Shown here: in pieces, positions 10,035-64,000 of the stretch
Numbering within the stretch: position 1 is the first letter of the stretch
Layout of the letters: each line of letters opens with the position of its first letter
NCBI GenBank assembly: GCA_029204225.1
Contig: CM055102.1
Coordinates: forward strand, 26,080,922 to 26,144,921
From: Diphasiastrum complanatum
Lineage: Eukaryota > Streptophyta > Lycopodiopsida > Lycopodiales > Lycopodiaceae
Direction: 5' to 3'
Length of the DNA stretch: 64,000 bases
Made by a program: the position numbers and the translations under genes
The notes under the pieces: generated by a model
Seen by the model: only the letters and a program-made list of their open reading frames with translations
The model's database searches: none
What the model was told of the DNA's origin: nothing

Positions 10035-10304
<270 letters not shown>

Positions 10305-18462: not shown

Positions 18463-21400
18463 GATTGGAGTATGGAACTGTGATGGTTTACACTCATCCT
18501 CCATTGCTGGCGACTTGATCGATTTCATCACTGACAGAGATTTGCTGCTCTTTATGGAGACTCATGAGAGTCAAGAGAGAGGATTACCTATTTTTCCAGG
18601 ATACAGATGGGATTCCGTGTACAGACTTGAGACTAGATCAGCTAGCGGTCGTGGATTCGGAGGTGTTGCATGTTTATACAGAGAGTCTCTTCATCCGAGC
18701 ATTGAGTTCATCAGACACGACGAGCATGCACGGTATATATGGATTCATATTACTGGGCAGGATATTGGGTTGGACAGGGACCTCTTTGTGGCGGCCTGTT
18801 ATTTTCCTCCAAACTTGTTGGCCAAAATATGGTAGTTATACTTGTCACCCTCACAGTGGTGGACATAGTGTTGTGGATTATCTCATGGGATCACCATCTT
18901 TCATACCTCTCATATCTGATTTTCATGTATCTCCCACCACTCTCTCTGATCATTCCTTTCTCTCCTTCGCTATCGGCCGCCTCCCACCTCCCCAACCATC
19001 CTCACACCCCCTGCTTACACGGGCACCCAAGTATACATTCAGTTTCCTCTTTACACCAGTTTACCAGGAGTTCCTAACCTCATTGCTCCATTCCTTCCCT
19101 CGCGATAGTACAGTCGAGACTCAAGCTGCCTTTCTTAGCACTTCTCTTCATATCGCTGCTTCCCTTGCTTTTCCATCTAAACCCCATAAAAGCAGAGGCA
19201 CCCGCTCCTCATCGATACGACCCCCACACCCCCCGTGGTATGATGTTGAATGTCGCTCTCTTCGTCAGCTTGTCACCCATGCCCGCACTCACGATCCTCA
19301 TCTCCTCCACTCCGCCAGGCGCTCTTACCGTCGCACACTCCGCCGAAAAAAGCGTATATATGATGACTCCGAAGGAACGCGTCTTGTTGATCTTCTCTTC
19401 AGTTCCTCTTCAGGCGCCTTTTGGCGTGAGTTTATCCCTCGTGCTCCACCACCCCTCCTAGATGACCTTCGCATATGGACCGAATACGCTACCAAACTAT
19501 ATACCATACCCACTGACGCACCCATCTCTATCTCCCCACGCCCCTCTGAGTTCACCTTCTTCACATCTGACATGGTACTTACGGCCATCAAGAGAATGAA
19601 GTCCCATAAAGCAAGAGATATCGAAGACCTTGAATCTGAACTCCTAACCCATGCTTCCGACCTCCTTGCTCCCACACTAGACACTCTCCTCAATTCCGCC
19701 GTTGTCTCTGGTTTCCCCTCATCCTGGTGCACCAACATCATCCACCCTATTCATAAAAATGGTGATCCCATGATCCCTGGTAATTACCGCACTATCATGA
19801 TCGGACATGTTCTCACGAAGCTCTATGGTACCATACTCCAGTCTGCAGTGAGTTCAGAGGCGGAAGCTCGGAGATTACATGCATTGGGGCAGGCAGGTTT
19901 CCGATCTCATTATTCTACCACTGACCATATTTTTACACTTCGAGCCTTGATCGAGGAAGCTAAGTACAGGAAAGAGAGGGTTTACTGCTGTTTTGTAGAT
20001 TTCAGGAAGGCCTTCGATTCTGTACCACGCTCCCTGCTCATTCAGAGACTTCGTGACCTTGGTTTCTCCACAGATATTGTTTTAGCAGTGATGGCTCTTT
20101 ATGAGAAGGTCTTGGGATGTTTCCGACATAGCAGTGGCTTATCTGATCACATTTGGAGCACCATTGGGGTGAAACAGGGGTGCTCTCTTTCACCGGTTCT
20201 CTTTGGATTGTATATTGATGAGTTAGAGCGAGTCATCTCACAGTGTGGCGGGGGTGGCTGTAGACTTGGCACCATTCTGATTGCTATTCTCCTTTATGCG
20301 GATGATGTAGTACTAGTATCCCCGACCAGAGAGGGTTTGCAGAGGCAGCTGGATTGTTTACAGGGATTTTGTACCAGATGGGGGTTGGGGGTGAACACTG
20401 CGAAGACCAAGGTTATGGTCTCCAACACTTCTCGAGCCTTCATGCAGCGCCAGGAGCTCATCTTAGATGGACAGGCCTTAGAGGTAGTTTCCTCTTATAC
20501 CTATTTGGGGATACTCTTCTCTGGTCCTACCTTCAGCATGCGGCAAGCTGCCACCACCCGACTTGGGAAGGGGCATTCCTCTCTTGTTTAGCTTGAGCGG
20601 TTCTGTTTCAGGAAGCTCATCCGAGATGTTCGCAGTAAGTGTAGACTCTTTGATACTATTGTCACCCCCACAGCCTTATATGCAACAGAGACATGGTGCA
20701 CCGGCCTTCCTTCATCACACTGGGCCAGCATTTCACGATTGCAGACCACCATGTTAGCCCGTATGATTCGGGCGAAGCCCTCGGTTCCACATGAGATCCT
20801 TCTTGCAGAGTTTGCCGTTCCACCCATTCAGATATATGCCGCGTTCCAGCTTATCACATACATTCAGAGAATCCAGGCTCTGCCCGATGAGGATATGAGA
20901 TATACACAGACAGCACTGGTCTCCTCACACTTTCTTCATGACCAGGGCTATCGACTATCGTGGTTCTCTCAGGCATCCCATTTCCTCCTTGAGTCATTTG
21001 GTATCTCCATTACAGAGCTCCCCTCAGGTACTCATCAGTATATCAGGCGCATCTTATATCGGGCATATCTCGACCGCACTTGGGGGCGACAGCTTGGGGT
21101 GAAACCCGGGTACTACTGGACTCATTTTATTGAGCTTGACATAGCAGGGGTCCCGGTCTTACCGCATTATTTGGACTCGAGACTATCACATTGCCTCAGA
21201 TTTACATTGGGACAACTCCGTGTATCATCACATCAGTTGGCTATTGAGACTGGTAGATTCCAGGGTACCCCGAGAGAGGAGCGGATTTGCCAGTTATGCT
21301 CTTTAGAGGAGGTGGAGTCAGAGGAGCACTTTATCTTTAGGTGCCCGGTATATTACGAGATCAGAGGGAGATACCACTGTTTGTTCCGAGACACACCTGT

Positions 21401-23740: not shown

Positions 23741-23795
23741 CCTCCTCCCCATGCATGCATATCCCTCCTCCAAAGTGGCAGTCCATGATTAAGTA

Positions 23796-23924
23796 CTAGG
23801 TAATGGCCATTGGGAGGGCCATTATCATGAATAATCAGGGACCGGGCAGCGAGTCGTGAAGGCCACGAGCTGCTCGAGGATTGGATTATTCATGGTAATG
23901 GCCCGACCAATGGCCATTACCTAG
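23796..23924. mobile_element. Foldback MITE-like element, 129 bp
   Basis: Arms of 41 bp (23796-23836 and 23884-23924) are near-perfect inverted repeats. Each begins CTAGGTAATGGCCATTGG at the outer end and reaches CATGAATAATC at the inner end, with a 47-bp GC-richer loop. Ends of the form CTAGG..CCTAG plus a short non-coding body fit a MITE. No clear target-site duplication was identified, and I cannot name the superfamily. Confidence 0.75.
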
Positions 23925-24269
23925 CGTAATTGATTTTCACCTAATTTTTTTGCCGATTTTTTGTGTCAGGCATAGTCACATGCATCAGTCAATTTTTCGT
24001 AATTCTGATACCACATGGGACAACTGTCTTGAAATGAAAGAGCCATGTGGAATTTCGAAAAAAAAAAATCATGGGTGATTCTAGAATGTTTCGATCATTC
24101 TAGAATGTTCCGGCGAGTTGAGGTGGTGTAGGCTCGTTCTAGAGCTTTCGGGCGCGAACTCCTTCTAGAAGTTTCACGAGTGGGCTGTTCATAGAACTTT
24201 CGCCAGCGGACTGCACATTTTCGATGGCTCGGAGGCAAGAGTTTGATGGCTGGGGGGCTTCCTGAGTTG

Positions 24270-24785
24270 CTCTCAGATGTAGCGCTTCCTGGCAGATTAT
24301 GCTTGGAGTTTCTCGTGGAGTTTTTCTTTGCACCCTTCATGTGCCAAATGTGCTCCAAGCTAGAAGTCTGGCAGAAACGTGTTTTTGCAATGAGTTGCTC
24401 TCGAAACTCAGATGTAGCAGGAAACGTGCTCCAAGCTAAAAGTTAGAAACATGTTTTTGCAATGAGTTGCTCTTTGATGTAGCAGGAAATGTGCTTCAAG
24501 CTAGAAGTCTGGCAGAAACGTGTTTTTGCTACGATTTGCTCTCAGATGTAGCAGGAAACGTGCTCCAAGATAGAAGGCAGAAACGTGTTTTTGCAACAAG
24601 TTGCTCTCAGATGTAGCAGGAAACGTGCTCAAAGCTAGAAGTCTAGCAGAAACATGTGTTTGCAGCAAGTTGCTCTCAGATGTAGCGCTTCTTGTCAAAT
24701 TGTGCTTGGAGTTTCTCGTGGTGTTTTTCTTTGCACCCTTCTTGTGCTAAACGTGCTCCAAGCTAGAAGTCTAGCAAAAAAGTGT
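24270..24785. repeat. Tandem repeat, about 65-70-bp unit, six to seven copies
   Basis: The core GAAACGTGCTCCAAGCTAGA, then GTCTGGCAGAAACGTGTTTTTGC and GTTGCTCTCAGATGTAGC, recurs with variation. The two ends of the array share a longer variant (GCTTGGAGTTTCTCGTGG and TTTTTCTTTGCACCCTTC), so the whole array may be a duplicated larger unit. Confidence 0.9.
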
Positions 24786-24925
24786 TTTAAGTTGCAAAAG
24801 CTATGAGATAAGATGAAATGAGGGATGAAGAAAGTGAAACATGTGAAGAAAGTATTGAAGAAGCTCCCAAGCCAGTTTTGATAGTTAGCTTTAAAGCACA
24901 TACACAAACTGCTATTGTGAAAGTG

Positions 24926-26470
24926 ATGGGGCAAGGAAGATAGAAGAACGCGAACGGAGAAGAGAGCAGGAATATTGCAGAACAGCTCTCCCATTCTAAT
25001 CGACTGATAGGTGAAAAACAGTCTAATAGACAGTTTATGCTAAATGTAATCACAGCTTTAAGTGTTCTAATTGTGCAACATGATCTTAAAAATTTATTTC
25101 ATACTCTAAAATAAGAGTACAGTCCACCGAGGAGATTAGAGATGGTTTGTGTGTGGGGCTACTGAAATCACATTCAATGTGAAGTATAGTTCTGAAATAA
25201 ATGAAAGAGCAGTATGATATCGCGAGTTCCTCAAGCGTCAAAGATGGCCATCGTCTGATCAAAAACTGAGGAGTCTTAGACGTCCGTGTTCTGATCAGAG
25301 TGAGTGAACAAGCGCGATCAAATAGCAATAACAGTGCATTCAATCACAACATGCATTCATCTACGTTGTACATAGATAAAAGCAAGATGCTGCTATATTA
25401 CACTGAAGCACAATACAAATAGTAATTACAACAAAAAATGACGGCATAGTTGGGAGGTTCAAAAATGTGTCTCATGGACGGAGCAACCCATAATCTGTGC
25501 TTGAATGATCTATTTATAGACTTCATCTGTGTATTTAATGCTTGTCACCTAACTAGAAAAGTCATTGTACTTGGAAGTATATGGCTTTTGTGACAACTGT
25601 ACACAGTATTTACGGTCAATAATTTAACAACGTTGATGCGGACAAGAACGTCGCTGGAACGATTCTTGTTTATTTGAGATGACCTTCGAGATTTTCTCTC
25701 TCTTCGCATTTTTCTCAAAAGCTGAAGGTGCCCTAAAAAGGATGATGTCTTTAGAACAACTTAACACATGAAAGTAGATCACCTTCGGGAATTGTCTCTC
25801 TCTTCGCATTTTTTGCAAATCCGAAGGTGTGTTAAAAATAGTTAAGCTTTTGAGCTATGCAAGTGTCGCATTTCGGAAAAATGCGAAAAGCCGAAGCTGT
25901 TGAAAACATAGTGTATTTCTACAGACTGTTGAAAAAGTAATGTATTTTTGCTGACTTGTTCTAAATGCAAGTTTTGTGGAAGTCGTTGAAGATGGCCAAG
26001 TCTTCAATGACTTCAAGTTATTAAACTTGACATCTGAACTTTGAAACTATGACAAGGTTGGTTACCCTTTGCTGGAGATCAGCCGGAAGCCCGTTGTAGA
26101 CGTTCTTCAAATAAATTGGTTGTCTAAGTTTGTGATTCCTACGGGTATTAGATGAGCAGATGTAGAACCAAAGTTGGTTTCACATGACTCTAGATCAATG
26201 ATCAATAAACATGCAAGAAGAATCATGAAATAGAAATTAGTCATTCACCAAGGAGACAACTATGGGCTTAATTTCCAACAGTCCCCCTTAAGGTCATGGT
26301 TGGTGTCTTGGTATCTTCGTCAGGTTCAGCATGTTGAAGAACTTCTGATGCTTGATCTTCGAAAGCACTTTGGTGAAGATGTCTGCGACCATTTCTGTTG
26401 TGGAGCAGTATTGAAGGATCACTTGCCCTGAGAAAACTTTCTCCCGAATGAAATGATACTAGATTTTGAT
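24926..26470 (-). mobile_element. Ty1/copia LTR with flank, first of two tandemly duplicated copies
   Basis: Fossil. An LTR of roughly 0.9 kb (about 25390-26280; minus-strand start TGTTGGAAATTAAG) is followed at higher coordinates by a short internal stretch with a purine-rich tract. The whole 1.5-kb block is repeated with an offset of about 1545 bp (26470-28010), so it appears to be a tandem duplication rather than two separate insertions. It is broken and has no coding capacity. Confidence 0.75.
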
Positions 26471-29400
26471 GGGGCAAGGGACATAGAAGAACACGAACGG
26501 AGAAGAGAGCTGGAATATTGCGGAATAGCTCTCCCATTGTAATCAGCTGCTAAATGCAAAAACAGTCTAATAGACATCTTATGCTAAATGTAATCATAGC
26601 TTTAAGTGTTTGAATTGCCCAATAGGATCTTAAAAATTAATTCATACTCTAAAATAAGAGTACAGTCCACCGAAGAGATTAGAGATGGTTTGTGTGTGGT
26701 GCTACTGAAATCACATTCAATGTGAAGTATAGTTCTGAAATAAATGAAAGAGCAGTATGATATCGCGAGTTCCTCAAGCGTCAAAGATGGCCATCGTCTG
26801 ATCAAAAACTGAGTCTTAGACGTCCGTGTTCTGATCAGAGTGAGTGAACAAGCACGATCAAACAACAATAAAAGTGCATTCAATCACAACATGCATTCAT
26901 CTACGTTGTACACAAATAAAAGCAAGTCGTTGTTATATTACCCTGAAGCACAATACAAATAGCACTTACAACAAAAAATGATGGCGTAATTGGGAGGCCC
27001 AAAAATGTGTCTCATGGACGGAGCAACCCGTAATGTGTGCTTGGATGATTTATTTATAGACTTCATCTGCGTATTAATTACATTGAATGCTTGTCACCTA
27101 ATTAGAAAAGCCGTTGTACTTGGAAGTATATGGCTTTTGTGACAACTGTACACAGTATTTATGGTCAATAATTTAGCATCATTGACACGGACGAGGACGT
27201 CGCTGGAACGATCCTCGCTTATTTGAGATGACCTTCAGAATTTTCTCTCTTTTCGCATTTTTCGCAAAAAACTGAAGGTGCCCTAAAAAGCACGATGTCT
27301 TTAGAATAGCTTAACACATGAAAGTAGATGACCTTTGGGAATTTTTTCTCTCTTCACATTTTTCGCAAAGAACCAAAGGTGTGTTAAAAATAGTTAAGCT
27401 TTTGAACTGTGCAAGTGTCGCATTTCGGAGAAATGCGAAAAAGCCAAAGCTGTTGAAAACATAGTGTATGTCTACAAAGTGTTGAAAAAGTAATGTATTT
27501 CTGTAGAATTGTTCTAAATGCAAGTTTTGTGGAAGTCGTTGAAGATGGCCAAGTCTTCAATGACTTCAAGTTATTAAACTTGACATCTGAACTTTGAAAC
27601 TATGACAGGATTGGTTACCCTTTGTTGGAGATCAGCCGGAAGTCCGTTGTAGACGTTCTTCAAATAAATTGGCTGTCTAAGTTGGTGATTCCTGCAAGTA
27701 TCAGATGAGTAGATGTAGAACCAAAGTTGGTTTCATCTGACCCTAGATCAATTATCAATAAACATGTAGGAAGAATCATCAAATAAAAATTAGTCATTCA
27801 CCAAGGAGACAACTATGGGCTTAATTTTCAGCAGTCCTCCTTAAGGTCACGGTTGGTGCCTTAGTATCTTCATCAAGTTCAGCTAATTGAAGAATTTCTG
27901 GTACTTGATCCAAGGAAGCGCTTTGGTGAAGATGTGTGCGACCATTTCGTTGTGAAGCAGTATTGAAGGATCACTTGCCTTGATAAAACTTTCTCCCGAA
28001 TGAAATGATACTAGATTTCTATGTACTTGGAATTTTGCCATGAAATCTGGGATTCAATGACAGTGAAATACAGCTCAAGTTGTCACACAGAATGGTGGTA
28101 GCATTAAACTGAGTGTGATGTAAGTTGTGAAGTAATAACCTAATCCATACAGCTTCTTTTGAAGCTTGACATGTTGCGATGTACTCTACCTCTGTCGAAG
28201 AAAGCGGAACTGATTTCTGCTTCTTTGACTTCCATGAAATCGGTCCCCTTGCCAAATAGAAACAGAAGTCGGAGGTAGATTTTCTAATAGAGACTGCTCC
28301 TCCCCAATCTGAGTCGAAGTAGTCTTGCTAGACAAGTGGGTCGATAGCGTTTCCATCGTAACATAAGATGTGATCTAAACTTCCCTGAATATATCTCATC
28401 ACTCTCTTCAATGATTTCCAAGGAGAGATCCTAGGATTAGACATGAATTGACTCAACGTGCTAATAGTATATGCTAAATGGTCTAGTACACAACATTGCA
28501 TATATTAGAGATCCGATTAGTGAATGATAAGGGTACTTCGCTAAGTCGAGTACTTCGCTATCAGTCTCAACACAAGAAGGTTTAGTCAATACTATACTTG
28601 GATCCATTGGGGTACCAATTGGTTTGCAATCAAACATATGAAACTTTTCTAAAATGCCTTTTAGATATGCCTATTGGCTAAGATAGATCTTCTTCTAAAG
28701 TTTGTCTCTAGTAATGTGAATTCCTAGCAAAGCATGAACAACTCCTAAATCAAGCATGTCAAATTCCTTTGACAGATCAGTCTTAGTAGTGTGCAAAAGA
28801 GAAGTGTCGCTAGACAAAATAAATGCATCATCTATGTAAAGAGCTATGTGAACTGAATTGGTGCCTATATGCTTTGAATAAACATTATAGTCAGTTGAAT
28901 TGTGCAAATCCTAATTGAATGAGATAAGAGTTGATTCTATCGAACCATGCTCTTGCGGCCCGTTTCAGACCGTAGATTGCTTAACTTGCACACTTTGTGC
29001 TCTTGGCCTTTGACTTCAAATCTTTCCGATTGGAAGGTGTACAGCTCCTCTTCGACATTGTCAATGAGAAATGTGGCCTTGACATCCATTTGGTGCATTT
29101 CGAAATCTTCTGCGGCTGCTAACGCAATCAGAGTCTTGATTGACTGCATCTTGACGACTGGACTAAAAATTTCTTGATAATACACTCCTTGGACTTGGGT
29201 GAATCCTTTAGCCACCAGCCATGCTTTCCATTTTGCAATGGAACCATAAGAGTTGATCTTCTTCTTGAAGATCCACTTGTTGTCTATAACTCTCTTGTGA
29301 GTGGGGAAGTCGACCAGTGTCTAGGTCTGATTCATCAAAAGTGAGTTGTACTCGCTTTCCATAGCTTCTTGCCACTTCACAGCATCCTTGGAGCTAATTG

Positions 29401-30077
29401 CTTTGGCTAGACTCTCTGGTTCTTCTAATGAAATCCAGAATCATTGAGGTGCATACCTCTCATGAACTGTCTGAGTCCGTGAGGATCTGCGGACATTGGG
29501 TTGACCAGGATGCGATGATGCTTCTTCTTGAATTTCTTCAGATCTGTTGAGCCAGCTTGGTATGGTCTGATGACAAATATTGTCGGCTGCTCGGCTTCTA
29601 CAGCTGTAGCTGCAGGTTCTGTAGAAGGAACATCAACATTGGAAGAATCCATGCTACGTAAAATAGGATGAAATGACATAGCATCGTTTATCGATGGTTG
29701 TTTGAAATCATAGTATGTATGTTCTTGAAATATTACATCCCTAGAGACAAATACTACATTGGTGGATGGATTATAAACTTTATAAGCTTTATGCTCATTA
29801 GGATAGCCAATGAAAATACATTTATTTGTTTTATGATCCAGTTTCTTCCTAAGTTGTTTAGGAATGTGAACAAAACATATACAACCAGATATTATTAAAT
29901 GGCTGACACTAGGCTTGTGTCCATGCCAAACTTCATGAGGAGTCTTTGTTGTTGACAACTTTGGTGCTGGATCTGTTCTGCACATAACAGGCTGTGGCAG
30001 TAGCTTCTGCCCAGAACTTTGCAGATAGGTGTGCTTGATGTAGCATGGATCTGGCTGAGTTGAGAAGAGTTCAATTC
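26470..30077 (-). mobile_element. Ty1/copia element A, 5'-truncated fossil
   Basis: Minus strand: 3' LTR about 26930-27833, polypurine tract, RNase H (about 28020-28260), reverse transcriptase (28.3-29.2 kb), and integrase C-terminal region (29.4-30.07 kb). Gag, protease and 5' LTR are missing; the element stops where the LTR of element B begins. Many breaks. It is closely similar to element B, so both belong to one family and are of moderate age. Confidence 0.85.
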
Positions 30078-33000
30078 TCATGGATGGAACAACCCATAAT
30101 CTGTGCTTGGATGATCTATTGATAGATTTCATCCTTGTACTAATTACATTGAATGCTTGTCACCTAATTAAAAAAGCCGTTGTACTTGGAAGTATATGGC
30201 TTTTGTGACAACTGTATACAATATATACGGTCAATAATTTAGCATTGTTGACGAGGACGTCGCTGGAACGTTCCTCGTCTATTTTAGATGACCTTCGGGA
30301 TTTTTCTCTCTCTTTGTATTTTTTGCAAGAAGCCGAAGGTGCCCTCAAAAAGACAATGATGTCTTTAAAATAGTTTAACGCATGAAAATAGATGACCTTT
30401 GGGATTTTCTCTCTCTTCACATTTTTCACAAAGAGCCGAAGGTGTGTTAAAAACAGCTAAACTTTTGAACTATGCAAGTGTCGCATTTCGGGAAAATGCG
30501 AAAAAATCGAAGCTGTTGAAAACATAGTGTATTTCTGCAGACTATTGAAAAAGTAATGTATTTCTACAGACTTGTTCTAAAAAAAGTTTTGTGGAAGTCC
30601 TTGAAGATGGCCAAGTCTTCAATGACTTCAAGTTATTAAACTTGACATTTGAACTTTGAAATTATGACAGAATTGGTTACTCTTTGCTGGAGATTAGCCA
30701 GAAGTCCGTTGTAGACATTCTTCAAATAAATTGGTTGTCTAAGTTTGTGATTCCTGCAGATATCAGATGAGCAGACGTAGAACCAAAGTTGGTTTCATCT
30801 GACCCTAGATCAATGATCAATAAACATGCAGGAAGAATCATGAAATAAAAATTAGTCATTCACCAAGGAGACAACTGTGGGTTTAATTTCCAACAGATTT
30901 CTATGTGCTTGGATTTTCCATGAAATCCTAGATTCAGTGACAGTGAATTACAGCTCATGTTGTCACACAGAGTGGTGGTAGCATTAAACTGAGTGTGATG
31001 TAAGTCGTGAAGTAATACCAGGTTTCTTTTGAAGCTTGACATGCTTCGATGTACTCTACCTCTATCGAAGAAAGCACATTTGATTTCTACTTCCTTGAGT
31101 TCCACGAAATCGGTCCCCTTGCTAGATAGAAACAGAACCCGGAGGTAGATTTTCTGGTAGAGACTGTTCCTCCCCAATCTGAGTCGGAGTAGCCTCGCAG
31201 GACGAGTGGGTTGATAGCATTTCCATCGTAAAATAACATGTGATCTAAACTTCCCTGAATATATCTCATCAGTCTCTTTAATGCTTTCCAATGAGAAATC
31301 CTAAGATTATACATGAATTGACTTAACGTGCTGACAGTGTATGCTAAATCTGGTCTAGTACACAACATTGCATACATTAGAGATCCGATTAGTGAATGAT
31401 ACGGGTATTTCGCTAAGTCGAGTAGTTCACTATTGGTCTCAACACAAGAAGGTTTAGTCAATACTATACTTGGATCCATTGGAGTATCAATTGGTTTGCA
31501 ATCGGACATATGAAACTTTTCTAAAATGTCTTTTAGATATGCTTGGTGGCTAAGATAGATCTTCTTCTGAAGTCTATTTCTAGTAATATGAATTTCTAGC
31601 AAAGAATGAACAGCTCCTAAATTGGTCGTGTCAAATTCCTGTGACAGATCACTCTTAGTAGTGTGCAGAAGAGAAGTGTCGTTAGACATAATAAATGCAT
31701 CATCTACGTAAAGAGCTATGTCAACTAAATCGGTGCCTATATGCTTTGAATAAACATTATAGTCAGCTAAATTGTTTGCAAATTCTAATTGAATGAGATA
31801 AGAGTTGATTCTATTGAACCATGCTCTTGCAGTCCATTTCAGACCGTAGATTGCTTTGTGCAGCTTGCACACTTTGTGCTCTTGGACTTTGACTTCGAAT
31901 CCTTCCGGTTGGAAGTGTACAACTCCTCTTCGACATTGTCGTTGAGAAACGTTGTCTTGACATCCATTTGGTGTATTTCGAGGTCTTCCGTGGCTGCTAA
32001 CGCAATCAGAGTCCTGATTGACCCATCTTGATGACAGGACTGAAAATTTCTTGATAATACACTCCTTGGAGCTGAGTGAATCCTTTAGCCACCAACCGTG
32101 CTTTCCAATTTGCAATGGAACCATCAGAGTCGATCTTCTTCTTGAAGATCCCCTAGTTGTCTATAACTCTCTTATGAGTGGGAAAGTCGACCAGTGTCCA
32201 GGTTTGATTCGTCAAAAGTGAGTTGTACTCGCTTTCCATAGCTTCTTGCCACTTCACAGCATCCTTGGAGCTAATTGCTTTGGCAAGACTCTATGGTTAT
32301 TCTAATGAAGTCCAGAATGATTGAGGTGCATACCTCTCAGGAACTGTCCGAGTCCATGTGGATCTGCGGACGTTGGGCTGACCAGGATGCGATGATGCTT
32401 CTTCTTGAATTTCTTCAGATTTGTTCGAGCTAGCTTGGTCTGGTCTAATGACAGATATTGTCGGCTACTCGACTTCTGTAGCTATAGCTGCAGGTTCTGT
32501 AGAAGGAACATCAATGTTGGAAGAATCCATGCTACGTAAAATAGGATGAAATGACATAACATCATTTATTGATGGTTGTTATCATAGTATGTATGTTCTT
32601 GAAATATTACATCCCTAGAGACAAATACTACATTGGTGAATGCATCATAAACTTTATGAGCTTTATATTCATCAGGATAGCCAATGAAAATTCATTTATT
32701 TGTTCTATGATCTAGCTTCTTCCTAAGTTGTTTAGGAATGTGAACAAAACATATACAACCAAAGATTTTTAAATGGCTGACACTAGGCTTGTGCCCATGC
32801 CAAACTTCATGAGGAGTCTTGTTGTTGACAACTTTGGTGTTGGATCTGTTTTGCACGTAACAGGTTGTGGGAGTAGCTTCTGCCCAGAACTTAGCAGGTA
32901 GGTGTGCTTGATGTAGCATGGATCTGGTTGAGTTGAGAAGAGTTCGATTCTTCCTTTCTGCAATCTCGTTCTGTTGAGGTGAATAGGAAGTGGTGAACTG

Positions 33001-35481
33001 TCTTCTATTACCATGTTCAGCCATGTAGTCGGACATCTCGTTAGACATGTATTCGCCGCCACCATCAATTTGGAGTGCCCTCACTTTTGTAGACGTTTGT
33101 GTTTCAGCCATGGCCTTGAATGTCTTAAAGCATTCAAAGGCTTCAGATTTGTTTTTAAAGAACATGACTGTAGACCATCTAGAATAATCATCTATGAAAG
33201 TGATAAGATAGATTGCATCTCCTAATGACGGAGTTGGTATTGGACCACAAAGATTGCTATGTACAAGATCCAATACATGCTTTGTTTTGATGGAATGTGA
33301 TTTTGGAAACTTGCTTCTAGAGTGCTTCCCATAGATGCATGATTCACAAAAGAAAGATTTTCTATCTAATGAAAAAGGGAAATTCAGTTTATAAACTAAA
33401 TTATTACAATGCATATAAGAAAGTGATCTTGTATTTACGTGTCCAAATGAACTATGCCACAGAACATCACTGTTGTTTACATTTTCATTAGAAATACTAG
33501 CTAATGCAACTGAATTAGAGAGTACGTAAAGATTTTCGACTCTAGTGCATGTAGTGAGAGTGGTATCTTCCTCGAGTATTGTACACTACTCAGATGAGAA
33601 AGTAACAGTGTAGCCCTCATTAATTATCTTAGAGACTGATAATAGGTTCTTTGACAACTGAGGAACATGAAGGACATTAGGAACACAAATGGACAAATCG
33701 TTGTTGAAGCTGATCTTCACTGCTCCTTTGTCTTCCACGCGTATGGTGTAGAATCTTCGAGGTAGATAAGTTGTAAGTTGTGTACTCCGTAAACCATTCC
33801 TTGCGAGAGATCATGTGTTGGGTAGCGCCGTTGTACAGGTACCAGCTATCACAGTCTTCGCTGCTGCTGTAAGCCATTAACAAGTGTGTATCTGACTCCT
33901 TGAATTCTGTTGTGTTGGAGGAGTCTGGCTGTTGTTGCTTCTTTGCCTCGTTGTAGATCCTAATGCGACACTCTTTGATGTCGTGATTAGCTCTTTTGCA
34001 ATATTTGCATAAAAGCTTCTTGCATGATCCACCATGCTCACCTTGAGTGTGAGGCTTCTGTTGTTGCTGTTGTACGTGATTCTTGCCCTTGGAATAGTCT
34101 TTCTTCTTGGTGTATAGAGCCATGGATTTGTCTTTGATGGACAAGCTGTTAGTCTTTCTTCGCATTTCTTCTTGAAGAAGATGACCGATCACCTTTTGAA
34201 GAGTGAGGTCGGGTTGTGTGGAGATTATCACCACAAAGTGCTCATCAGACTAAATTGGAAGAGAAGAAAGCAAGATCATAACGGCATCATCATCTTGAAT
34301 AGAACATCCTACAACTGATAACTAATCTAACAGGGACTTGAAGGTGTTGATGTGAGAAGTGATGGCAGTAGAATCAGACATGCTAAGAGTAAAGAACTTC
34401 CTTCTAAGATGTAATCTCGTGGTTACATCGTGAGTCTCATAAAGACTTGATAGCAAGTCCAGTGCTTCCTTAGAGGTTTTGCATGTGGTAACGTGAGATA
34501 TGTGGGAGTCGGCCAGATTGAGTGTGATACATGCTAGGGCCTTCTGATCTTTGATCCTCGAGGCCTTTGCTTGATCAGTTATATTACACTAAAGCACAAT
34601 ACAAATGGCAATTACAACAAAAAATGATGGCGTAATTGGGAGGCTCAAAAATGCGTCTCATGGACGGAGCAACCCGTAATTTGTGCTTGGATGATCTATT
34701 TATAGACTTCATCCGTGTATTAATTACATTGAATGCTTGTCACCTAATTAGAAAAGCCATTGTACTTGGAAGTATATGGCTTTTGTGACAACTGTACATA
34801 GTATTTACAGTCAATGATTTAGCATCGTTGACGCGGACGAGGAAGTCGTTGGAACGATCCTCGTTTATTTGAGATGACCTTCAGAATTTTCTCTCTTTTC
34901 GCATTTTTTGCAAAAAGCCAAAGGTGCCCTAAAAAGGACGATGTCTTTAGAATAGCTTAACACATGAAAGTAGATGACCTTCGGGAATTTTCTCTCTCTC
35001 TTCACATTTTTCGCAAAGAACCGAAGGTGTGTTAAAAACAGTTAAGCTTTTGAACTGTGCAAGTGTCACATTTCGAAGAAATGCGAAAAAGTCGAAGCTG
35101 TTGAAAACATAGTGTATTTCTGCAGACTGTTGAAAAAGTAATGTATTTCTGCAAACTTGTTCTAAATGCAAGTTTTGTGGAAGTCGTTGAAGATGGCCAA
35201 GTCTTCAAGGACTTCAAGTTATTAAACTTGACATCTGAACTTTGAAACTATGACAGGATTGGTTACCCTTTGCTGGAGATCAGTCGGAAGCCCGTTGTAG
35301 ACGTTCTTCAAATAAATTGGCTATTTAAGTTTGTGAGTCCTGCAGGTATCAGATGAGCAGATGTAGAACCAAAGTTGGTTTCACCTGACCCTAGATCAAT
35401 GATGAATAAACATGTAGGAAGAATCATGAAATAGAAATTAGTCATTCACCAAGGAGACAATTGTGGGCTTAATTTCCAACA
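30078..35481 (-). mobile_element. Ty1/copia element B with both LTR regions, fossil
   Basis: Minus strand: 5' LTR about 34574-35481 (starts TGTTGGAAATTAAG), gag with zinc knuckle (CKYCKRANHDIKEC near 34.0 kb), protease near 33.8 kb, integrase (32.7-33.4 kb), RT (31.1-32.1 kb), RNase H (about 31 kb), and 3' LTR 30078-30893. The structure is complete in outline but the coding region carries many breaks (more than five). LTR divergence is visible, so it is not a very recent insertion. Its 3' LTR joins element A directly. Confidence 0.88.
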
Positions 35482-35816
35482 AAAGTAGTACCAGATTAAT
35501 GTGCTCCTTGAAGTGTCAGCAAGTAGATTTTTTACTTATTGTTTGATATTGTTTTGTGAGTTTTTGGATAGGCATTTCTAGTGGCACTTGTTCTCTGGAT
35601 TCTAGAAGCCTTTGTGCTTGGAGAGTTTGTAGTTTGAGATAGTTGTTTAACTGTTTCTATAGCAGTTTTAGAAATGTGTTTTTGTTTTTGTTTTGCGTTG
35701 TATTTGTTGGTTTGCAGTTATCTTTCATGATGTACCTGTCATTTCTCAGATGTTGGAGCTCACGTTGCAGCTGTAGCCTATCATTGATCTTTTGAGTTGT
35801 GAATTATAGTCTTTGA

Positions 35817-36178
35817 ATGGCTGCTATAGAGCACTCATCTGACAGGCTTTCTAATAGTCTTTTTGAGCCTTGTAATGTTCATGTGGAAGATGAGGATGGC
35901 CTACAAGGTGTTGAAGATATTGAGATAGATACTAATCCTTCACGCATGTTTCTTGATGTAAATGCTAGTGATTTGGAGTTGGTAGATTCTCGTGGAAGAA
36001 ATCGTAGTCATGGTCTTGAACAGTGGTTTCGAAAACGATTTTATGCTTGGAGGATTGCCACTGGAAAAGATGACAATATACCTCCAAAAAAGCTTCCATT
36101 GGATGTTCTTGCAGAATATATGGTTCCATTTATCTTGTCACTAAAGAAATTGAATGGCAATTATTATCCTAGTGCTAG
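35817..36178 (+). pseudogene. Crypton/DUF3504-type tyrosine recombinase, exon 1
   Basis: Start ATG at 35817, after about 330 bp of leader that follows the copia LTR end. It encodes an acidic N-terminus, then LEQWFRKRFYAWRIATGK and KLPLDVLAEYMVPFILSLKK with NGNYYPSA. This matches the N-terminal core-binding region of DUF3504 proteins (family pattern: W..WR, then LN..L..F...+K..G..Y.P.SL). These proteins derive from Crypton DNA transposons, whose tyrosine recombinase cuts and rejoins DNA without a DDE transposase. The exon ends at 36178 with AG then GTACTG, phase 2, and the join to exon 2 gives the expected ..YYPSASLAHMF. The exon itself is open. Confidence 0.72.
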
Positions 36179-36267
36179 GTACTGGATGTTTCAGTCCTTT
36201 GTTTTCATCCTTTTCGATTTTTGTTATCACTTTCCTCTTTTGTGATATTTTTGTTTTATTTTGGCAG

Positions 36268-36530
36268 TTTAGCTCACATGTTCCGTGCTTGTGGGAGAAT
36301 CATTCGACGTGAATAGGTTTCTAGAATATGTAGAATTCATGTTGATGAGTTGTCTATTGTTGTTCAGAATCATCCATTTTTTGAGAGAGCTCGCATTGCT
36401 TTGGTGCTTCATATGGATAAGTCTATTAAATCTAGAGCTAATAAGAAACGAAAGAAGAGTGCACCTATGATGTGGAAGGATGAGGAAGAGTGTTTAAAAG
36501 ACCCTGAACATTCTATACATCATGTTGTTG
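36268..36530 (+). pseudogene. Crypton/DUF3504-type recombinase, exon 2
   Basis: The acceptor TTTTGGCAG precedes 36268. It encodes LAHMFRACGRIIRRE, then RIHVDELSIVVQNHPFFERA and HMDKSIKSRANKKRKK, ending with an acidic MMWKDEEECL. In the family this segment links the N-terminal helical domain to the catalytic domain (pattern: F...R..L...mK.l...G.g.....a..lt..dE..LW). An in-frame TAG at 36314-36316 interrupts it where a Gln codon (CAG) would fit, a C-to-T change. The 3' end of the exon is uncertain because possible donors near 36522-36531 differ in phase. Confidence 0.65.
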
Positions 36531-36800
36531 GTTAACAGAAACATTGGTGTTATTACTGTTTAAGTCGTTTTATGGTTCGCGGACACACATAATTGTACTA
36601 TCTACTTGATATCGTTTTTCAAGAAAGATTTGATGTTCATGGTTCTTTTGTTATGTAAGTTTTTAATGTTGTAGAATGTTAGATTTTATGAATTAGTCCT
36701 ATTGATTTGTAATTGTCCAGCAAGTCGAGTTTTTTTTAGTTATATTGATGTATATTCTTGTAGCATAAAGTTTGAATTTGTTTCTTAAATGGTGATTTAG

Positions 36801-37127
36801 GTATTTTGAGAGGGATTCTAAGAACTACAACTCTTCTATGACACGATATCAAGAAGAGCATTTCAGATGTCCTGTGAAGTGTTATGAAGAGGATGCTATA
36901 ATAACATATAGGCAGCTTCTTCGTCACCTTCCAGCAAAACAGAATCCTAGTGTTGGTCGTCATATTTTTTTGCAAGCTATACGAGGAAATCCTCGAACCA
37001 ATGCATGGTACAATACTAATAATGTGGGAGTGAAAGTTTTAAGCTCTTGGATAAAGAGTATGATGTCTGTACTTGGAGATGGGGGAGGATTCACAAATAA
37101 AAGTCCTTGCTATGCAAGTATTCAGAG
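36801..37127 (+). pseudogene. Crypton/DUF3504-type recombinase, exon 3 (catalytic domain)
   Basis: Encodes YFERDSKN, then FRCPVKCYEEDAIITYRQLL, HLPAK, an aromatic-rich strand with NAWYNTNNVGVKVLSSWIK, and MMSVLGDGGGFTNKSPCYAS. The order CPV...Y...LP....W......G...L...MK...G....N+S is the DUF3504 catalytic signature. At the usual His-x-x-Arg position the sequence has Lys-Ser-Pro-Cys. The Cys (TGC) could come from Arg (CGC) by one C-to-T change, while Lys for His may be family variation or decay. The exon ends at AG followed by GTTAAT, phase 2. Confidence 0.72.
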
Positions 37128-37223
37128 GTTAATAGATGAATAGTTTTGTTGTTTAAATTTTCACGGTAATTGTGTCAAGTTGTTTGCACCTTCTTATTCT
37201 TGTTTTTTGTGTGTTTGTTTTAG

Positions 37224-37500
37224 GATGATTCAAGCAGGTGTACCTACTGCAGTTGGAATGGCTATTACAGGTCATCGTAATGAGAACTCCTATCGAAGAT
37301 ATGATTAATCTATGGAGATTCAGAAAATGGATGCAATGAACATTATTGCTGAACCTTTTAAGGATGGAAAAGACGCAAGTATGAGAATGTGCTCAATGAG
37401 CTTGAAGGTGTTAATGTTCAATGCGAGCTTATTGGGAGTGTTTCTAGATATTGTGGCAATTCATCTGCAGGAAATTCTGCTTCTGTTCAAGTTCCATTAG
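37224..37500 (+). pseudogene. Crypton/DUF3504-type recombinase, exon 4 (His and Tyr region)
   Basis: The acceptor TTTTAG precedes 37224; the join with exon 3 restores SIQRMIQAGVPTAVGM in frame. AITGHRNENSYRRYD follows, matching the family's GH..(x)nY box: the last catalytic His and the nucleophilic Tyr. Directly after it, at 37306, is a TAA where CAA (Gln) would continue RYDQSMEIQ, again a C-to-T change. The same frame continues as SMEIQKMDAMNIIAEPF before losing conservation. Two premature stops and a changed HxxR argue that this copy is inactive unless intact alleles exist. Confidence 0.72.
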
Positions 37501-37509
37501 ATGCCATTA

Positions 37510-38010
37510 TGAGAATGTTACTTAAGTTGTAGATGTAGGAGTTAAACCAAATGATAATGTTTCGAAGTGGCAGGTGGATAGTATTACAAATCAAAAACAA
37601 CATTGTTGTTCTGGAAGACAGTCTGTTGATTGTAATCATGCAGTGGGTGTGCAACAAATTGGTTCAGCTGAAAAGGTGGATGTAGCTTTTGTTTCTAAAG
37701 AGGCATTGGATCCGAATGACCTCGTGAATATTGATGTTGATGAGCTTGTTCGAAAATGGCCAGAGGCTTGAAAAGCTCTTGGCTACTATCATATAGATTC
37801 TTCCGTAACAAATAACGTTGGGCAACAATTTGGATACTTCGATAATTGTACTGTGAATATAACTGTTGGTCCAGAATTTTTAAATGTGTTTTCGAGAAGC
37901 AGCAGAAAACTGATTGAAACATTACCAAAAACTTGTATGTTTTGTAATTCGATCGACTACTTTTGATCAATCTTTTATGAAGTTGTAATCTTGTAATAAA
38001 TTTCCACAAA
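37510..38010 (+). other. C-terminal and 3' region of the recombinase gene
   Basis: A short frame (37574-37771) encodes a His/Cys/Val-containing tail with DPNDLVNIDVDELVRKWPEA that is not part of the recombinase fold. It could be a lineage-specific C-terminal extension. AATAAA near 37994 may be the polyadenylation signal. I do not recognise the tail. Confidence 0.4.
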
Positions 38011-38047
38011 TTCTGTTTTACATGAGTTCTCCCTATAATTGTTGTGG

Positions 38048-38049
<2 letters not shown>

Positions 38050-38106
<57 letters not shown>
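38050..38106. repeat. (CT)n microsatellite
   Basis: Perfect CT array just 3' of the recombinase gene. No LINE sequence is attached. Confidence 0.97.
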
Positions 38107-38109
<3 letters not shown>

Positions 38110-38111
<2 letters not shown>

Positions 38112-38247
38112 AGGCCTCTACCATGCGGTCAAGCAAGAAGGAAGTAGGCAGGTCTTTGTCGTGCGGTCAGGCAGGAAGGAAGTAGGCAGCCCGCGTAGAG
38201 AAGTCAGGAAGGAAGTAGTAGGCAGCCCGCGTAAAGAATTCAGGTGG
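38110..38247. repeat. Tandem repeat, about 40-bp unit, three copies
   Basis: Recurring GTGCGGTCAGGCAGGAAGG and AGTAGGCAGCCCGCGTA words, head to tail, following the CT array. Confidence 0.8.
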
Positions 38248-38337
38248 TAAAAATCAGGGCCCTATATTATTAGGGCCTAAAAATTAGGTGAAAGTCAATT
38301 AAGTGAGTTTTTAAATTGCCGAGTTTTTAAATTGGCC

Positions 38338-39400: not shown

Positions 39401-39521
39401 GCGAAGCTGTTATTGCTTACAGTCCAAGCCCTGCCAGCACCCATGATCACCCATGATCAGATCAAAAACCAATTAGGTTCAGGATCTTCCGACCTTTGAA
39501 TATTGAGAGTGTGAGCGGATT

Positions 39522-40119
39522 TTGTCCGCAATAATACGTTCTGCGCTGAGATCACTGCCAACTAGCAGTCCAGGGCCAAGTTGCAGTGGATCTGGCGTTT
39601 TAGTTGGCGACAGAAAGAAGAAAATATTGCAGAATTGGCTGCACGTACTTACTGTAGGATTTATTGCGGGGCTGCTTTGTTGGGGCATAATCAGAACTTT
39701 CGAATCAGGTCTGCTTTCAAGGCTTTCTATTGAAGCTGACCACAAGGATTCGTGTACTTCATTGCATCAAAAACTAGCTGGATCGCCAATAGACATTCCA
39801 GGATTATTTTCTGAGACTCCTGACAGTGGTAATGCTTTCTATGAGAAAGCTGGATTTAAATTGCATGTGAACGATTCCTACAGATTGAGGCCTCAGATTT
39901 TCGACTGGGACGATCAGCGTAGAAGATGGCTTTCTAAAAATCCTCACAAAAAGACGACAACAACTCGAAAATCTCCACTGTTTTTAGTCTCGAGTTCTGA
40001 GCCGCGTCCTTGCGAGAATCCAATGGGAGATCACTTTCTCCTCAAAGCCATCAAGAACAAGATGGATTACCTGTCGCCTACATGGCATTGACATATTCTA
40101 CAACATGGCGCAGCTTTGA
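39522..40119 (+). pseudogene. 5' fragment of a xyloglucan 6-xylosyltransferase-like gene (GT34)
   Basis: GT34 enzymes add xylose to the glucan backbone of xyloglucan in the Golgi. The frame begins MSAIIRSALRSLPTS. A type II membrane anchor (WLHVLTVGFIAGLLCWGII, about residues 40-60) is followed by the stem region, with YRLRPQIFDWDDQRRRWL and PRPCENPMGDHFLLKAIKNK. The latter two blocks are diagnostic of GT34 (PKI.DWD.QR..WL and PCENP.GDH.LLK.IKNK.DYCRLHGI). One extra base near 40071 shifts the frame; the other frame then reads CRLHGIDIFYNMAQL and stops at 40117. The catalytic DxD half is absent. It is a truncated pseudogene of about 195 codons out of the usual 450 or so. Confidence 0.9.
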
Positions 40120-43599: not shown

Positions 43600-44825
43600 T
43601 CCTTGTCAAAAAGAGATTTTTCGATCTTCGGAAAATTCGAGACTTTGAAAAAATTCGAGACTCTGGAAAAATTTGAGTCTTTAAAAAATTCAAGTGTTTG
43701 GAAAAATTTGATCCTTTGAAAAAATTCGAGTCTTCGAAAAAATTCGAGTCCTCTAAAAAATAAGAGTCTTTGAAAATTTTGAATCTTTGAAAAAATACGA
43801 GTTTTATTTTACAAAGGGTCGTATTTTACTCTAGGTCAAAAAATATACAAAGGGTCAAAATAAATCCGTCTCAATCCGTTCCAATCTTGGGTCTGAAAAT
43901 CTTTCTTTGAAAAATTTGAGTCTTCGAAAAAAATCGAGTCTTCAGAAACAATCGAGTTTTTGAAAAAATTCGAGTCATTGAAAAATTCCAGTCTTTGAGA
44001 AAATTTGATTATTTGAAAAAATTCAAGTCTTTGAAAAATTCGGTCTTTCAAAAAAATTCGAGTCTTCTTAAAAAATCGAATCTTCTGAAAAAATTTGAGT
44101 TTTCGAAAAAATTTGAGTTTTTGAAAAATTTGAGTCTTTAAATACATTTGATTATTTGAAAAAATTCAATTCTTCAAAAATTCGAGTCTTCGAAAAAAAT
44201 TCGAGTCTTGGAAAAAAAATTCGAGCCTTTAAAAAAATTCGAGTCTTCGGAAAAAATCGATTCTTTGGAGAGAAAAAATTCGAGTCTTTAAAAAATTTGA
44301 GCCTTTAAAAAAATTCTAGTTTTTTACAAAGCGTCGAAAAATATACAAAGGGTCTTATTTTACTCTAGGTCGAAAAATATACAGAGGGTCGGAATAAATC
44401 CACCTCGATCCGATCCAATCTAATGTCGGAAAATCCTTCTTTGAAAAATTCAAGTCTTTGGAAAAATCGAATCTTCAGAAAAAAAATCGAGTCTTTGAAA
44501 AAATTCGTGTGTTCGAAAAAATTCGAGTCTTTGAAAAATTCGAATTTTTGAAAATTTTTTATCATTTAAAAAAATTCGAGTCTTTGAAAAATTCGATCCT
44601 TCAAAAAAATTCGAGTCTTTGAAAAATTTGAGTCTTCTTTAAAATTCGAGTCTTTGGAAAAATTTGAGTCTTTGGAAGAATTCGAGTTTCTGAAAAAATT
44701 CAAGTCTTCGAAAAAATTTGAGTTTTCAAAAAAAATTTGAGTCTTCAAAAAAATTTGAGTTCTCAAAAAAATTCGAGCCTTCGGAAAAATTCCAGCCTTT
44801 GGAAAAATTTGAGTCTTTGGAGATT
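43600..44825. repeat. Minisatellite, 18-bp unit, about 60 copies, with higher-order structure
   Basis: The consensus is close to TTCGAGTCTTTGAAAAAA, in many variants. A distinct 75-100-bp spacer with TATACAAAGGGTC and AATAAATCC occurs twice (about 43835-43915 and 44335-44440), so the array has a higher-order repeat near 500 bp. Because the unit is a multiple of three, the minus strand stays open over long stretches, encoding DSNFF/EDSNFS-type repeats. I see no sign that these are expressed. Confidence 0.93.
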
Positions 44826-47160: not shown

Positions 47161-47222
47161 TTAGAAGCACAGAGATATTATACGAAAGTGTCTCATTAGC
47201 TTAATTCTTGTCGAATCCTCAC

Positions 47223-47427
47223 CTCCATTGAACCATACAGCCAGGGGTAGCGATGAAAAGTCAGGATGATCTGCCTCAAAAAGCCAGTAAAATAGTGCAC
47301 GGTCGTGCTCTTTATTGACAGTCACCTCTCCTGCATACTGATTAAAGTTGACAGTTGGCTGTCCTGGTAATCCTTGCACCATTATAAGACAGCTAACCAC
47401 GAAGTGCAAGGTTAGCTTCATGTACAA
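47223..47427 (-). pseudogene. Exon 1 of a serine carboxypeptidase-like gene (S10)
   Basis: Encodes [18 protein letters not shown], a plausible signal peptide, then [19 protein letters not shown] and [10 protein letters not shown] with PLAVWFNGG. These are the conserved N-terminal S10 blocks (LPGqp.v.f.qYaGyvtV, ra.FYwf.eA, PlvlWlnGG). The exon ends at GGAG followed by GTGAGG, the usual first-intron position in this family. The next expected block (PGCSS) is not found within about 2 kb downstream, so only the first exon is present. The exon itself is open; it is listed as a pseudogene because the catalytic Ser, Asp and His parts are absent. Confidence 0.78.
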
Positions 47428-47699
47428 TACTAACTCTCATATATAACATTTTCCAAGGGCCCAAGGATAGGCACAGGTCATATTTTGCCACATCAGTCCG
47501 TGTAGATGACAGGCTGGAGTGTTCAATGACTCTTTAGCCAAGCTAATAAGGGGTATGTAACCACACCTTCTGAATGCAAGCTCTTCATTATAGTATAACA
47601 ACAGATCTCATCCTATTTGGTTGTTCAATATCATTATTAACAAATGGAAGAAAAAATCTGATATTATATTGAGGCATCATATCTAAGCCTACACAGAAT

Positions 47700-61479: not shown

Positions 61480-64000
61480 GAAACTAAAGAGGCTGAGGTA
61501 AGTAGGCATTTACATGATTACTTGAAGAAGGGTGGGTACAACCTAGTAAGTCTCCTTGGGCATCACTAGTGGTTCTAGCTGCCAAGAAGTATGGGATGAT
61601 AAGGTTTTGTGTCGATTATAAGAACAAGTTAACCATTAAGAATAGATATCCACTACCGCAGATGGATGACCTAATAGATTATCTTGGTGGTGCTAAGTAC
61701 TTTACCAAGATAGATCTAAGATCGGGATACCATCAGATACGCATTAGGGCAGAAGATATACCAAAAACGGGTTTTCAAACTCACTTTGGTCACTACAAAT
61801 TTTTGGTGCTGCCTTTTGGTCTAACCAATGCACCAGCAACTTTCAAACAGATGATGAACGATTTGTTCAGGCCATATTTGGGAATATTCATAGTGGTATT
61901 CTTAGATGATATCCTAGTGTTCAGTAAGACTTTGGCGGAACATAAAGAACATCTTAAGATTGTCTTGGACATCCTAAGAAGGAAAAAGCTCTTTGCCAAA
62001 GAGTCTAAGTGTGACTTTTTTTGTTAAGGACTTGTCCTACTTGGGGCATAAGATTTCCAAACGAGGAGTGGAGACTGAGGCCGATCATATCCAGAGGGTT
62101 ATTGAATGGCCTATTCTTACCACAGTTCAGGAAATCAAGTCTTCCTTGGGGTTTGTAGGATTTTTCCATCAGCATATTCCCCAATTTGCTCGATTGGCAT
62201 TTCCTCTTACCCAGGCCTTGAAAGGCTATAAGGAGCTAAGCCAGAGGGCTCAGAGTCCACTAGCGAAGTGGAGGGCTCCACTAGTGGAGTGGACGGAGGC
62301 TATGAATAATTGTTTTGAGTTGCTTAAAAAAAGTGTCAATTCAGCACCAATACTAATCATTAGTGATCCTAATAAGGCTTTTGTGGTTAGGACTGATGCC
62401 AGTGATGCAGAATGGACATCTTGTTGCTTATGAAAGCAAGAAACTCAATTCTGCTCAATCTAGGTATTGTACCTATGAGAAGGAACTGTTTGCGATTGTT
62501 CATGCCATGAAAATTTAATGACATTATTTGTATGCAGCCAGATCTAAGGTTTTGACAGATCATTAGACTCTTCGATATTTCAGTGATGCTACTGGTTTAA
62601 AGGAGAGGCAAGCTAGATGGGCTGAGCTGGTGCAAATCTTTGACTTTTCTATATGTTATTGACAATTGTAAAGGAAGTCAAAATACTCTAGTGGATGCTT
62701 TGAGTCGTTTACCAGTTATTAATCAATTATGCTTTATTGTTATAGAACCGGGGTTGTTTTAGTCTCTTGAGGGACTATATGAGTCCGATCCTTTTTTCGG
62801 AAAGTATTGGCAACAAGTACTTTCTGGGGTCGATTCAGGTATGCAAGATTCCGCAAATTAGGGAAAGACTAAAATGGATTTTGCTATTCAAAACAAGATT
62901 TTGTTTCGTAAAGGCAAAGTGTGTGTACCAGAGAATGACACAGTAAGGGCCCAAATCTTGCATGAGTATTATGATAGTCCATGTGCAGGACATCCGGGTA
63001 TACAAATAATACTTGACTTAGTTCGACGGCAATTTTGGTGGCCTAATATGAAAAGTCAAGTAGAGGCCTATGTACTTAAATGTGCTAAGTGCCAGTTAAA
63101 TAAAACAGAGAGGCTAAAAGCTAGTGGCCTATTACATCCTTTAGATATTTCTACCGGAAAGTGGGAAAGTATATCTATGGATTTTGTGGTCAGGCTTCCA
63201 CATATAGGGAAGGGCCATGATTCGGTTTGGGTCATTGTTGACAGACTTACGAAGTTTGCTCAATCTATCCCAACAAAAACTATTGTTAAAGCTCCAAAAC
63301 TAGTTCAACTGTTTGTTGAGAAGCTTTTTCGACTGTACAGGCTGCCTTGCAATATTGTCAGTGATCGTGACCCAAAATTCACTGGGAATTTTTGGCAAGT
63401 AGTATTTGAAAAGTTGGAAATAGCTTTAAGTATCAGTTCTACAGATCATCCGAAATCAGATGGTGAAACAAAAATGACCAATCAGACGATGGAGAATATG
63501 TTGTGAGCATATGTGGGCCATCGGTAGTCTGATTGGAAAAATTACCTTCCACTGGTGGAATTTGCATATAATAATAGTGCAAAACATTCAACTACCGGAT
63601 TCAGCCCTTTCATGCTTATGTATGGTTATCAATCTCGATCATCGATTCGTGTTGGCATGAAAAACCTTAGGGTGCAAGCCGTAGCTTATTTCCTTGTGGA
63701 TATGCAAGAAATGTTACAGCTGGCTAAAGATAGCATAAGAAGTGCCCAGGACAGGGCAAGCACTATGCTGATCTATCTTAGGAGCACAAGGTATTCTTGG
63801 TCAATGACTAGGTGTTTTTGAGGGTTCCTAGTCACTCTAGGGGGCTTGAAAACTATTAAGTGTGCAAAGTTGGCGCCTAGGTATTGCGGTCCTTTTAAGG
63901 AGATGTAAGTGATAAACAAGGTCGCGTACATACTAGACCTTCCAGCTAATGTTGGAATTCATCTTGTTTTCCACGTTAGTAAGTTGAAACCCTCTTTGGG
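61480..64000 (+). mobile_element. Ty3/gypsy pol (RT, RNase H, integrase), fossil, continues past window
   Basis: Plus strand. RT (61500-62020: [21 protein letters not shown]), RNase H (62350-62720), integrase zinc-binding region and core (62870-63510: HEYYDSPCAGHPG, CAKCQLNK, SMDFVVRLP), and the start of the integrase C-terminal region (HLVFHVSKLKPSLG) at the window end. The RT and integrase stretches are long and open, so it is the best preserved gypsy copy here, with several breaks overall. The 5' half is absent from this side. Confidence 0.92.

Follow-up and report, generated by a model that had tools for sequence, protein, structure and literature searches.

The locus studied here lies in a stretch of 64,000 nucleotides of the lycophyte Diphasiastrum complanatum, hereafter called the window, and is very probably an autonomous, now dead member of a Crypton-like family of tyrosine-recombinase DNA transposons that is native to this plant genome. 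As far as its anatomy shows, the family works in the manner of Cryptons, but its membership in that group is unproven because the profile scores lie below their cut-offs and only one of the two copies read at both outer ends has a direct repeat. A reading of the sequence alone (the sequence-only reading) had proposed a Crypton-type tyrosine recombinase with introns in a plant genome, which our analysis supports as to kind and as native to a plant chromosome, the window lying in a contig of 63.3 Mb. It had also left the choice between a transposon and a captured host gene, which is settled in favour of a transposon by the fixed ends, the tandem joints and the 470 occurrences of the 5' end.

The Recombinase Gene of the Window

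The gene comprises four exons and three introns, all on the forward strand:

35817-36178 (+): exon 1, N-terminal core-binding-like part with WFRKRF..WR and YYPSA, from translation and alignment to the database proteins P0001 and P0002
36179-36267 (+): intron 1, GT..AG, phase 2, from splicing of the window sequence
36268-36654 (+): exon 2, box-I arginine region FMVRGHT, with three in-frame stops
36655-36800 (+): intron 2, GTAAGT..AG, phase 2, from splicing of the window sequence
36801-37127 (+): exon 3, from CPVKCYEE..LP to FTNKSPC (box II, altered in the window)
37128-37223 (+): intron 3, GT..AG, phase 2, from splicing of the window sequence
37224-37966 (+): exon 4, TGHRNENSYRRYD, which carries the tyrosine, followed by the C-terminal part with DNCTVNI; stops and frame changes

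On translation and splicing, the blocks W..WR, YYPSA, CPV..Y..LP, N-K-S-P-C and GHRNENSYRRYD follow one another from the N- to the C-terminus, at the place and in the order given by the sequence-only reading. That reading described introns 1 and 3 as clean, with GT-AG ends and phase 2, and splicing of the window sequence bears this out; its count of two such introns has to be raised, for intron 2 has equally regular ends and the same phase. It also counted two in-frame stops, whereas the joined frame to 37420 holds four, at residues 137, 210, 229 and 387. Past YRRYD and past position 37500 the C-terminal reading continues in other frames to about 37966, and the DNCTVNI motif near its end is common to the window gene and P0001. 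With four stops and the box-II arginine replaced, a change of the HxxR motif that was already noticed earlier and that a comparison of 11 sequences upholds, the window copy is dead.

Ends and Layout of the Element

Beyond the gene, the following parts of the element were delimited in the window:

23788-23792 (+): left short direct repeat ATTAA, candidate recombination overlap; the same 5 bp recur at 38298-38302
23793-23923 (+): 5' end of the element, GTACTAGG..., a 130-bp palindrome
23924-24923 (+): 5' leader of the element, opening with the 3' terminal sequence in inverted form; its right boundary is approximate
24924-35481 (-): cluster of copia-type LTR retrotransposons inside the element and no part of it; left boundary approximate
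38257-38302 (+): 3' end, a small hairpin and AAAAATTAGGTGAAAGTCAATTA(A)
38298-38302 (+): right short direct repeat ATTAA

The element thus delimited spans 23793-38302 and is interrupted by the copia cluster, without which it measures about 3.95 kb, compared with 3.8 kb for the copy on contig C19 and 4.1 kb for a copy on C5. BLAST among the loci and inspection of their boundaries indicate that the copies share their termini, GTAYTAGGTAATGGCC... on the 5' side and ...AAAAATKAGSTGAAAGTCAATTAC on the 3' side. Positions 23794-23997 of the window are 83% identical to the 5' end of the C19 copy, and the 5' palindrome of the window folds to -50.1 kcal/mol versus -16.3 kcal/mol (SD 2.7) for shuffled sequences (z = -12.5); the 3' hairpin is weak when folded against shuffles (z = -2.4). 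The stretch GTAATTGATTTTCACCTAATTTTT at the start of the 5' leader is the reverse of the 3' end, and the leader is matched in the relatives to position 24032 only. The shared 3' end (CAATTAC) is followed by differing flanks at C19, C22, C8, C15, C2, C10 and in the window, while the C22 copies have the same flank beyond it because they are duplicates. ATTAA stands on both sides of the window element and nearly all other 3' ends read ATTAC; the two sides of the C19 element differ (AATAT versus ATTAC). Of the two copies read at both outer ends, the window thus has a 5-bp direct repeat and C19 has none, so that the repeat is suggestive at most. In the C19 element, the one full element whose frames were read, there are 16 open reading frames of at least 60 aa, none of them longer than 121 aa outside the recombinase gene.

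The copia cluster is nested, with four LTR copies and tandem duplications. Self-BLAST places its LTRs of 0.8-0.9 kb at 25470-26281, 27010-27834, 30076-30896 and 34656-35481, and its domains are rve, gag_pre-integrs and SH3_retrovirus.

Other Features of the Window

Reverse-transcriptase open reading frames (RVT_1) lie at 4539-7091 and 18519-20588, probably of LINE type by reading, and a third at 61518-62024. A degenerate 18-bp satellite with AAAAATTCGAGTCTTYGA units occupies 43632-44817, with about 50 copies in its longest array, and a perfect TC microsatellite of 261 bp (10038-10298) is one among several long TC runs. Two likely host gene exons lie on the reverse strand: one at 39507-40088, without a Pfam match, holds PCENPMGDHFLLKAIKNKMDY, which we take to resemble plant DUF616 proteins, and the other, at 47164-47436, matches serine carboxypeptidase (E = 5.8e-11). 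Scanning the window for Rfam families and for tRNAs gave no hit.

Copies of the Family in the Genome

The genome searched consists of 1.74 Gb in 5176 contigs, in which the window corresponds to C11:26080922-26144921. With the 136-residue protein of exons 3 and 4 as query, at least 144 protein matches were obtained at E ≤ 0.01, a lower bound because 150 of the 232 candidates were scored, and a figure exceeding that of genes because one gene matches exon by exon. Nineteen places, including the window, have 81-98% identity to exons 3 and 4 over at least 88 residues. Many further matches range down to 26-50% identity, some contiguous and others split near residue 65/68, the latter likely having an intron in a different position. 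Stop-to-stop frames of 317-356 aa are found at four distant places, and some lineages may therefore still be alive. L051/L052 and L053 represent additional diverged lineages of the recombinase in which the box-II spacing is unchanged; the former has stop-to-stop frames of 331-356 aa and, judged from these, may be intact.

Twenty regions of 10 kb were fetched, one being the window's own, and the window was aligned with the 19 other copies. Stops or frame changes occur in all 20 of these close copies, four of which (L040 and L047-L049) lack the first exon or more. The introns are ancestral, since GT..AG borders are kept across copies: in 15 of the 16 reaching intron 1, in 18 of 18 reaching intron 2, and in 15 of 20 for intron 3, which is altered or gapped in the other five. 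Pairwise differences suggest two groups, one of the window with the C22, C8, C10 and one of the C2 copies, the other of those on C5, C19 and C15 together with another C2 copy. These two subfamilies are 13-21% apart; partial copies within the first group reach 19% too, and its unity is less sure for that reason. Nine related copies (L037-L039 and L041-L046) lie within about 1 Mb at C22:3.51-4.56 Mb, surrounded by heavily repeated sequence.

Fifteen pairs of copies were then compared by site class, codon positions versus introns. For the window and four copies on C5, C19 and C2, divergence is 6-12% per codon position in the exons and 18-20% in the introns, with third codon positions only slightly above first and second ones. 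When the window is compared with two C22 copies, divergence is similar in exons (5-6.5%) and in introns (4.3-4.5%). We read this pattern as selection at the protein level while the family was mobile, with neutral decay since; because the third-position excess is small, and positions 2 and 3 have equal changes between L036 and L045, the sign of selection comes mainly from the comparison of exons with introns.

Tandem Joints, Short Derivatives and Proposed Movement

The 5' pattern is matched at 26 places in the fetched loci and the window, nine of which are the inner arm of the palindrome and 17 outer ends. Immediately before 12 of the 17 outer ends stands CAATTAC, that is, a tandem joint, and many of these 12 are mutual duplicates. 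The joint, AAAGTCAATTAC-GTAYTAG-GTAATGGCCATT, has imperfect inverted arms of 12 bp (9 of 12 positions matching) around a spacer of 7 bp; in shuffles, the match of the arms has p = 0.00096 at the fixed frame and p = 0.019 with the best frame allowed. Two inverted repeats of 11-13 bp are what tyrosine recombinases typically use, according to the relevant passage of Kojima and Jurka (2011; PMC3212892).

With two mismatches at most, a 30-mer of the 5' end has 470 occurrences in the genome (control pattern, 0), so that 5' ends are far more numerous than the close recombinase copies (about 20); the tie between the two is drawn from the full copies read. Among 100 listed places of the 470, same-strand pairs of 5' ends on C1, C11 and C13 are spaced by 1.08-1.2 kb, which is consistent with tandem short elements, known here from their 5' ends alone.

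From this anatomy we infer that the recombinase would join the two ends of the element into a circle, the joint of which, with two inverted arms around a 7-bp spacer, would constitute the recombination site in the usual layout of such sites. The circle would then recombine into AT-rich targets or beside an existing copy, in the latter case producing tandem arrays, and the same recombinase would move the short non-autonomous derivatives. The window copy would later have been split by the copia insertions and have lost its reading frame.

Relatives and Catalytic Residues of the Recombinase

An alignment of four family sequences found a single protein, P0001, among 6360 candidates (E = 3.7e-154). 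This JGI record (longest contig 10,717 bp) has 819 aa without a stop and is 44% identical to the C19 copy over 636 columns; its start may be missing, since it begins without Met. A wider alignment, scored against the 7996 candidates with the most words in common, added P0002-P0004 from ENA records. The X-masked window protein alone had no match at E ≤ 1 among 1381 candidates. No named Crypton was among the matches of these three protein database searches, and a scan of viral and prokaryote contigs with P0001 gave no relative.

Counted from the box-II position, all 11 sequences compared have His at +23 and Tyr at +32. Eight of them have the box-II arginine itself, for which the window, L028 and L053 have another residue; the box starts with Lys in ten sequences and with Glu in one, never with His. 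The box-I arginine aligns in the window, L036, L026 and P0001, and is Cys in L035.

Profile searches of the exon translations gave weak DUF3504 and Phage_integrase matches in the family, all below Pfam cut-offs. For DUF3504 (PF12012; cut-off 29.7 bits) the window exons score 14.8 bits and L053, the best relative tried, 22.9 bits (E = 1e-4), so that formal membership in the DUF3504 family, as assigned by the sequence-only reading, is unsupported. The catalytic end of Phage_integrase (PF00589, profile positions 106-168 of 172) is matched by the L026 exon at 20.1 bits (E = 5.9e-4; cut-off 27.1), and residues 102-186 of L026 match QRICH1, also below the cut-off (E = 7e-4). These sub-threshold matches to QRICH1, Phage_integrase and DUF3504 fall in N- to C-terminal order in L026 and L053. 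The window exons have sub-threshold Pfam matches only, some of them to the unrelated DUF4042 and THAP9_C, and no recombinase match was obtained with Pfam for P0001 (whole or trimmed), P0002, P0003 or L051. A six-frame search of the genome with PF12012 found nothing at E ≤ 0.001, which proves no absence because 14 control genomes gave zero as well.

Two structure models, with a mean pLDDT of 47 and 45, are too poor for use. Tyrosine recombinases make up 17 of 30 and 10 of 19 of their Foldseek rows, several being entries of the same enzymes and none individually significant. Long helices top the ranking of the VIA rows, PDB sequence searches gave no recombinase, and the BFVD structure search gave nothing interpretable (best row E = 1.4e-3 at TM 0.07).

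Alternative Explanations

Could the locus be a host gene captured from a Crypton, like ZMYM or KCTD1 in animals, with the other copies as pseudogenes? The three ancestral introns would suit such a gene, as would the frames of 317-356 aa in some distant members, but the dispersed copies with fixed ends and different flanks, the tandem joints and the 470 end copies do not, and the exons show no constraint relative to introns between the window and the two C22 copies. We consider the family a transposon, and not a captured single host gene, because it has defined ends, many derivatives and copies in different flanks; for the window family the captured-gene reading is mostly refuted and retains little probability. 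Elements of the DIRS and Ngaro types also have tyrosine recombinases and unusual terminal repeats, so that a remnant of a retrotransposon of this sort, the recombinase having moved cDNA circles and the reverse transcriptase having been lost, deserves mention. It is improbable in view of the C19 element, in which a reading of the frames found none above 121 aa outside the recombinase gene, and of the weak family matches, which are to the Crypton-derived DUF3504 and to the QRICH1 domain.

The recombinase gene might instead be a passenger, the ends belonging to a foldback or MITE-like element that an unrelated enzyme mobilised. This would account for the excess of 470 ends over some 20 close recombinase copies and for a 5' end that is one large palindrome; target duplications, which bear on the matter, can be judged in two copies only. 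We regard it as unlikely, since the C19 copy contains no further frame of notable size between its ends, and since the tandem joints consist of an end plus a start, which fits a circle. Contamination by DNA of fungi or oomycetes, the organisms in which Cryptons are best known, has a practically negligible probability and is refuted by the contig context: the contig that holds the window measures 63.3 Mb, close copies are found on eight of the large contigs, copia elements are inserted in the locus and the serine carboxypeptidase exon is about 9 kb away. The non-plant contaminant contig, named in the sequence-only reading as what would overturn it, is therefore not what the locus represents. 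A Crypton-like transposon native to the plant accordingly remains the preferred reading.

Comparison with Known Systems

The family resembles Cryptons in having one gene of tyrosine-recombinase type with no reverse transcriptase seen in the family, a joint with paired arms and a short spacer (known here from genomic end-to-start joints alone), and non-autonomous derivatives more numerous than autonomous elements. It differs from them in its land-plant host, its three phase-2 introns, the replacement of the box-II His by Lys or Glu, the palindromic 5' end, a long C-terminal region with a motif of NCTxNI type, and Pfam scores below the cut-off. In the passages concerned of Kojima and Jurka (PMC3212892), Cryptons are given terminal direct repeats of 4 or 6 bp, animal Cryptons having none; DUF3504 is derived from Crypton recombinases, with QRICH1 among the genes listed as holding the domain; and a mitochondrial green-alga protein with a DUF3504 domain is named and left without further analysis. 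With the DUF3504 genes (ZMYM2-4, KCTD1, KIAA1958, QRICH1 and WOC) the family shares sub-threshold DUF3504 and QRICH1 Pfam matches; unlike them, it is a mobile element present in many copies, and of its 11 sequences 8 have the box-II Arg and all have the Tyr.

Enzymes of the XerD/Cre type have the same spacing of the box-II R, +23 and +32 positions as the window family, namely R247-H270-Y279 in XerD and R292-W315-Y324 in Cre, in which Trp occupies +23. The window family differs from them in having no significant sequence or fold match and in the replaced box-II His.

The view that land-plant copies are hardly described needs qualification, for the table of a genome-paper survey (PMC4438587) has Crypton among the superfamilies in all groups studied, land plants included, and a table of the hazelnut genome (PMC8054262) has 455 'Class II/Crypton' entries; it stands insofar as the passages concerned list these as labels and characterise no element. 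Among the publications listed, a scope that leaves subscription papers and Repbase outside, no land-plant element of such anatomy is described.

It is possible, though somewhat less likely than not, that the family belongs to a division of its own among tyrosine-recombinase DNA transposons, one of the green lineage, marked by introns, a box-II change from His to Lys, a palindromic 5' attachment end that also contains the circle joint in inverted form, spread as tandem arrays and as hundreds of short derivatives, and the presence of four or more diverged lineages in a single genome. The range of Cryptons would be widened by a land-plant family whose ends are defined and which has introns, tandem arrays and many derivatives, providing a worked anatomy as opposed to an automatic label; the family also offers a testable attachment site as well as a possible source for the recruitment of plant DNA-binding genes.
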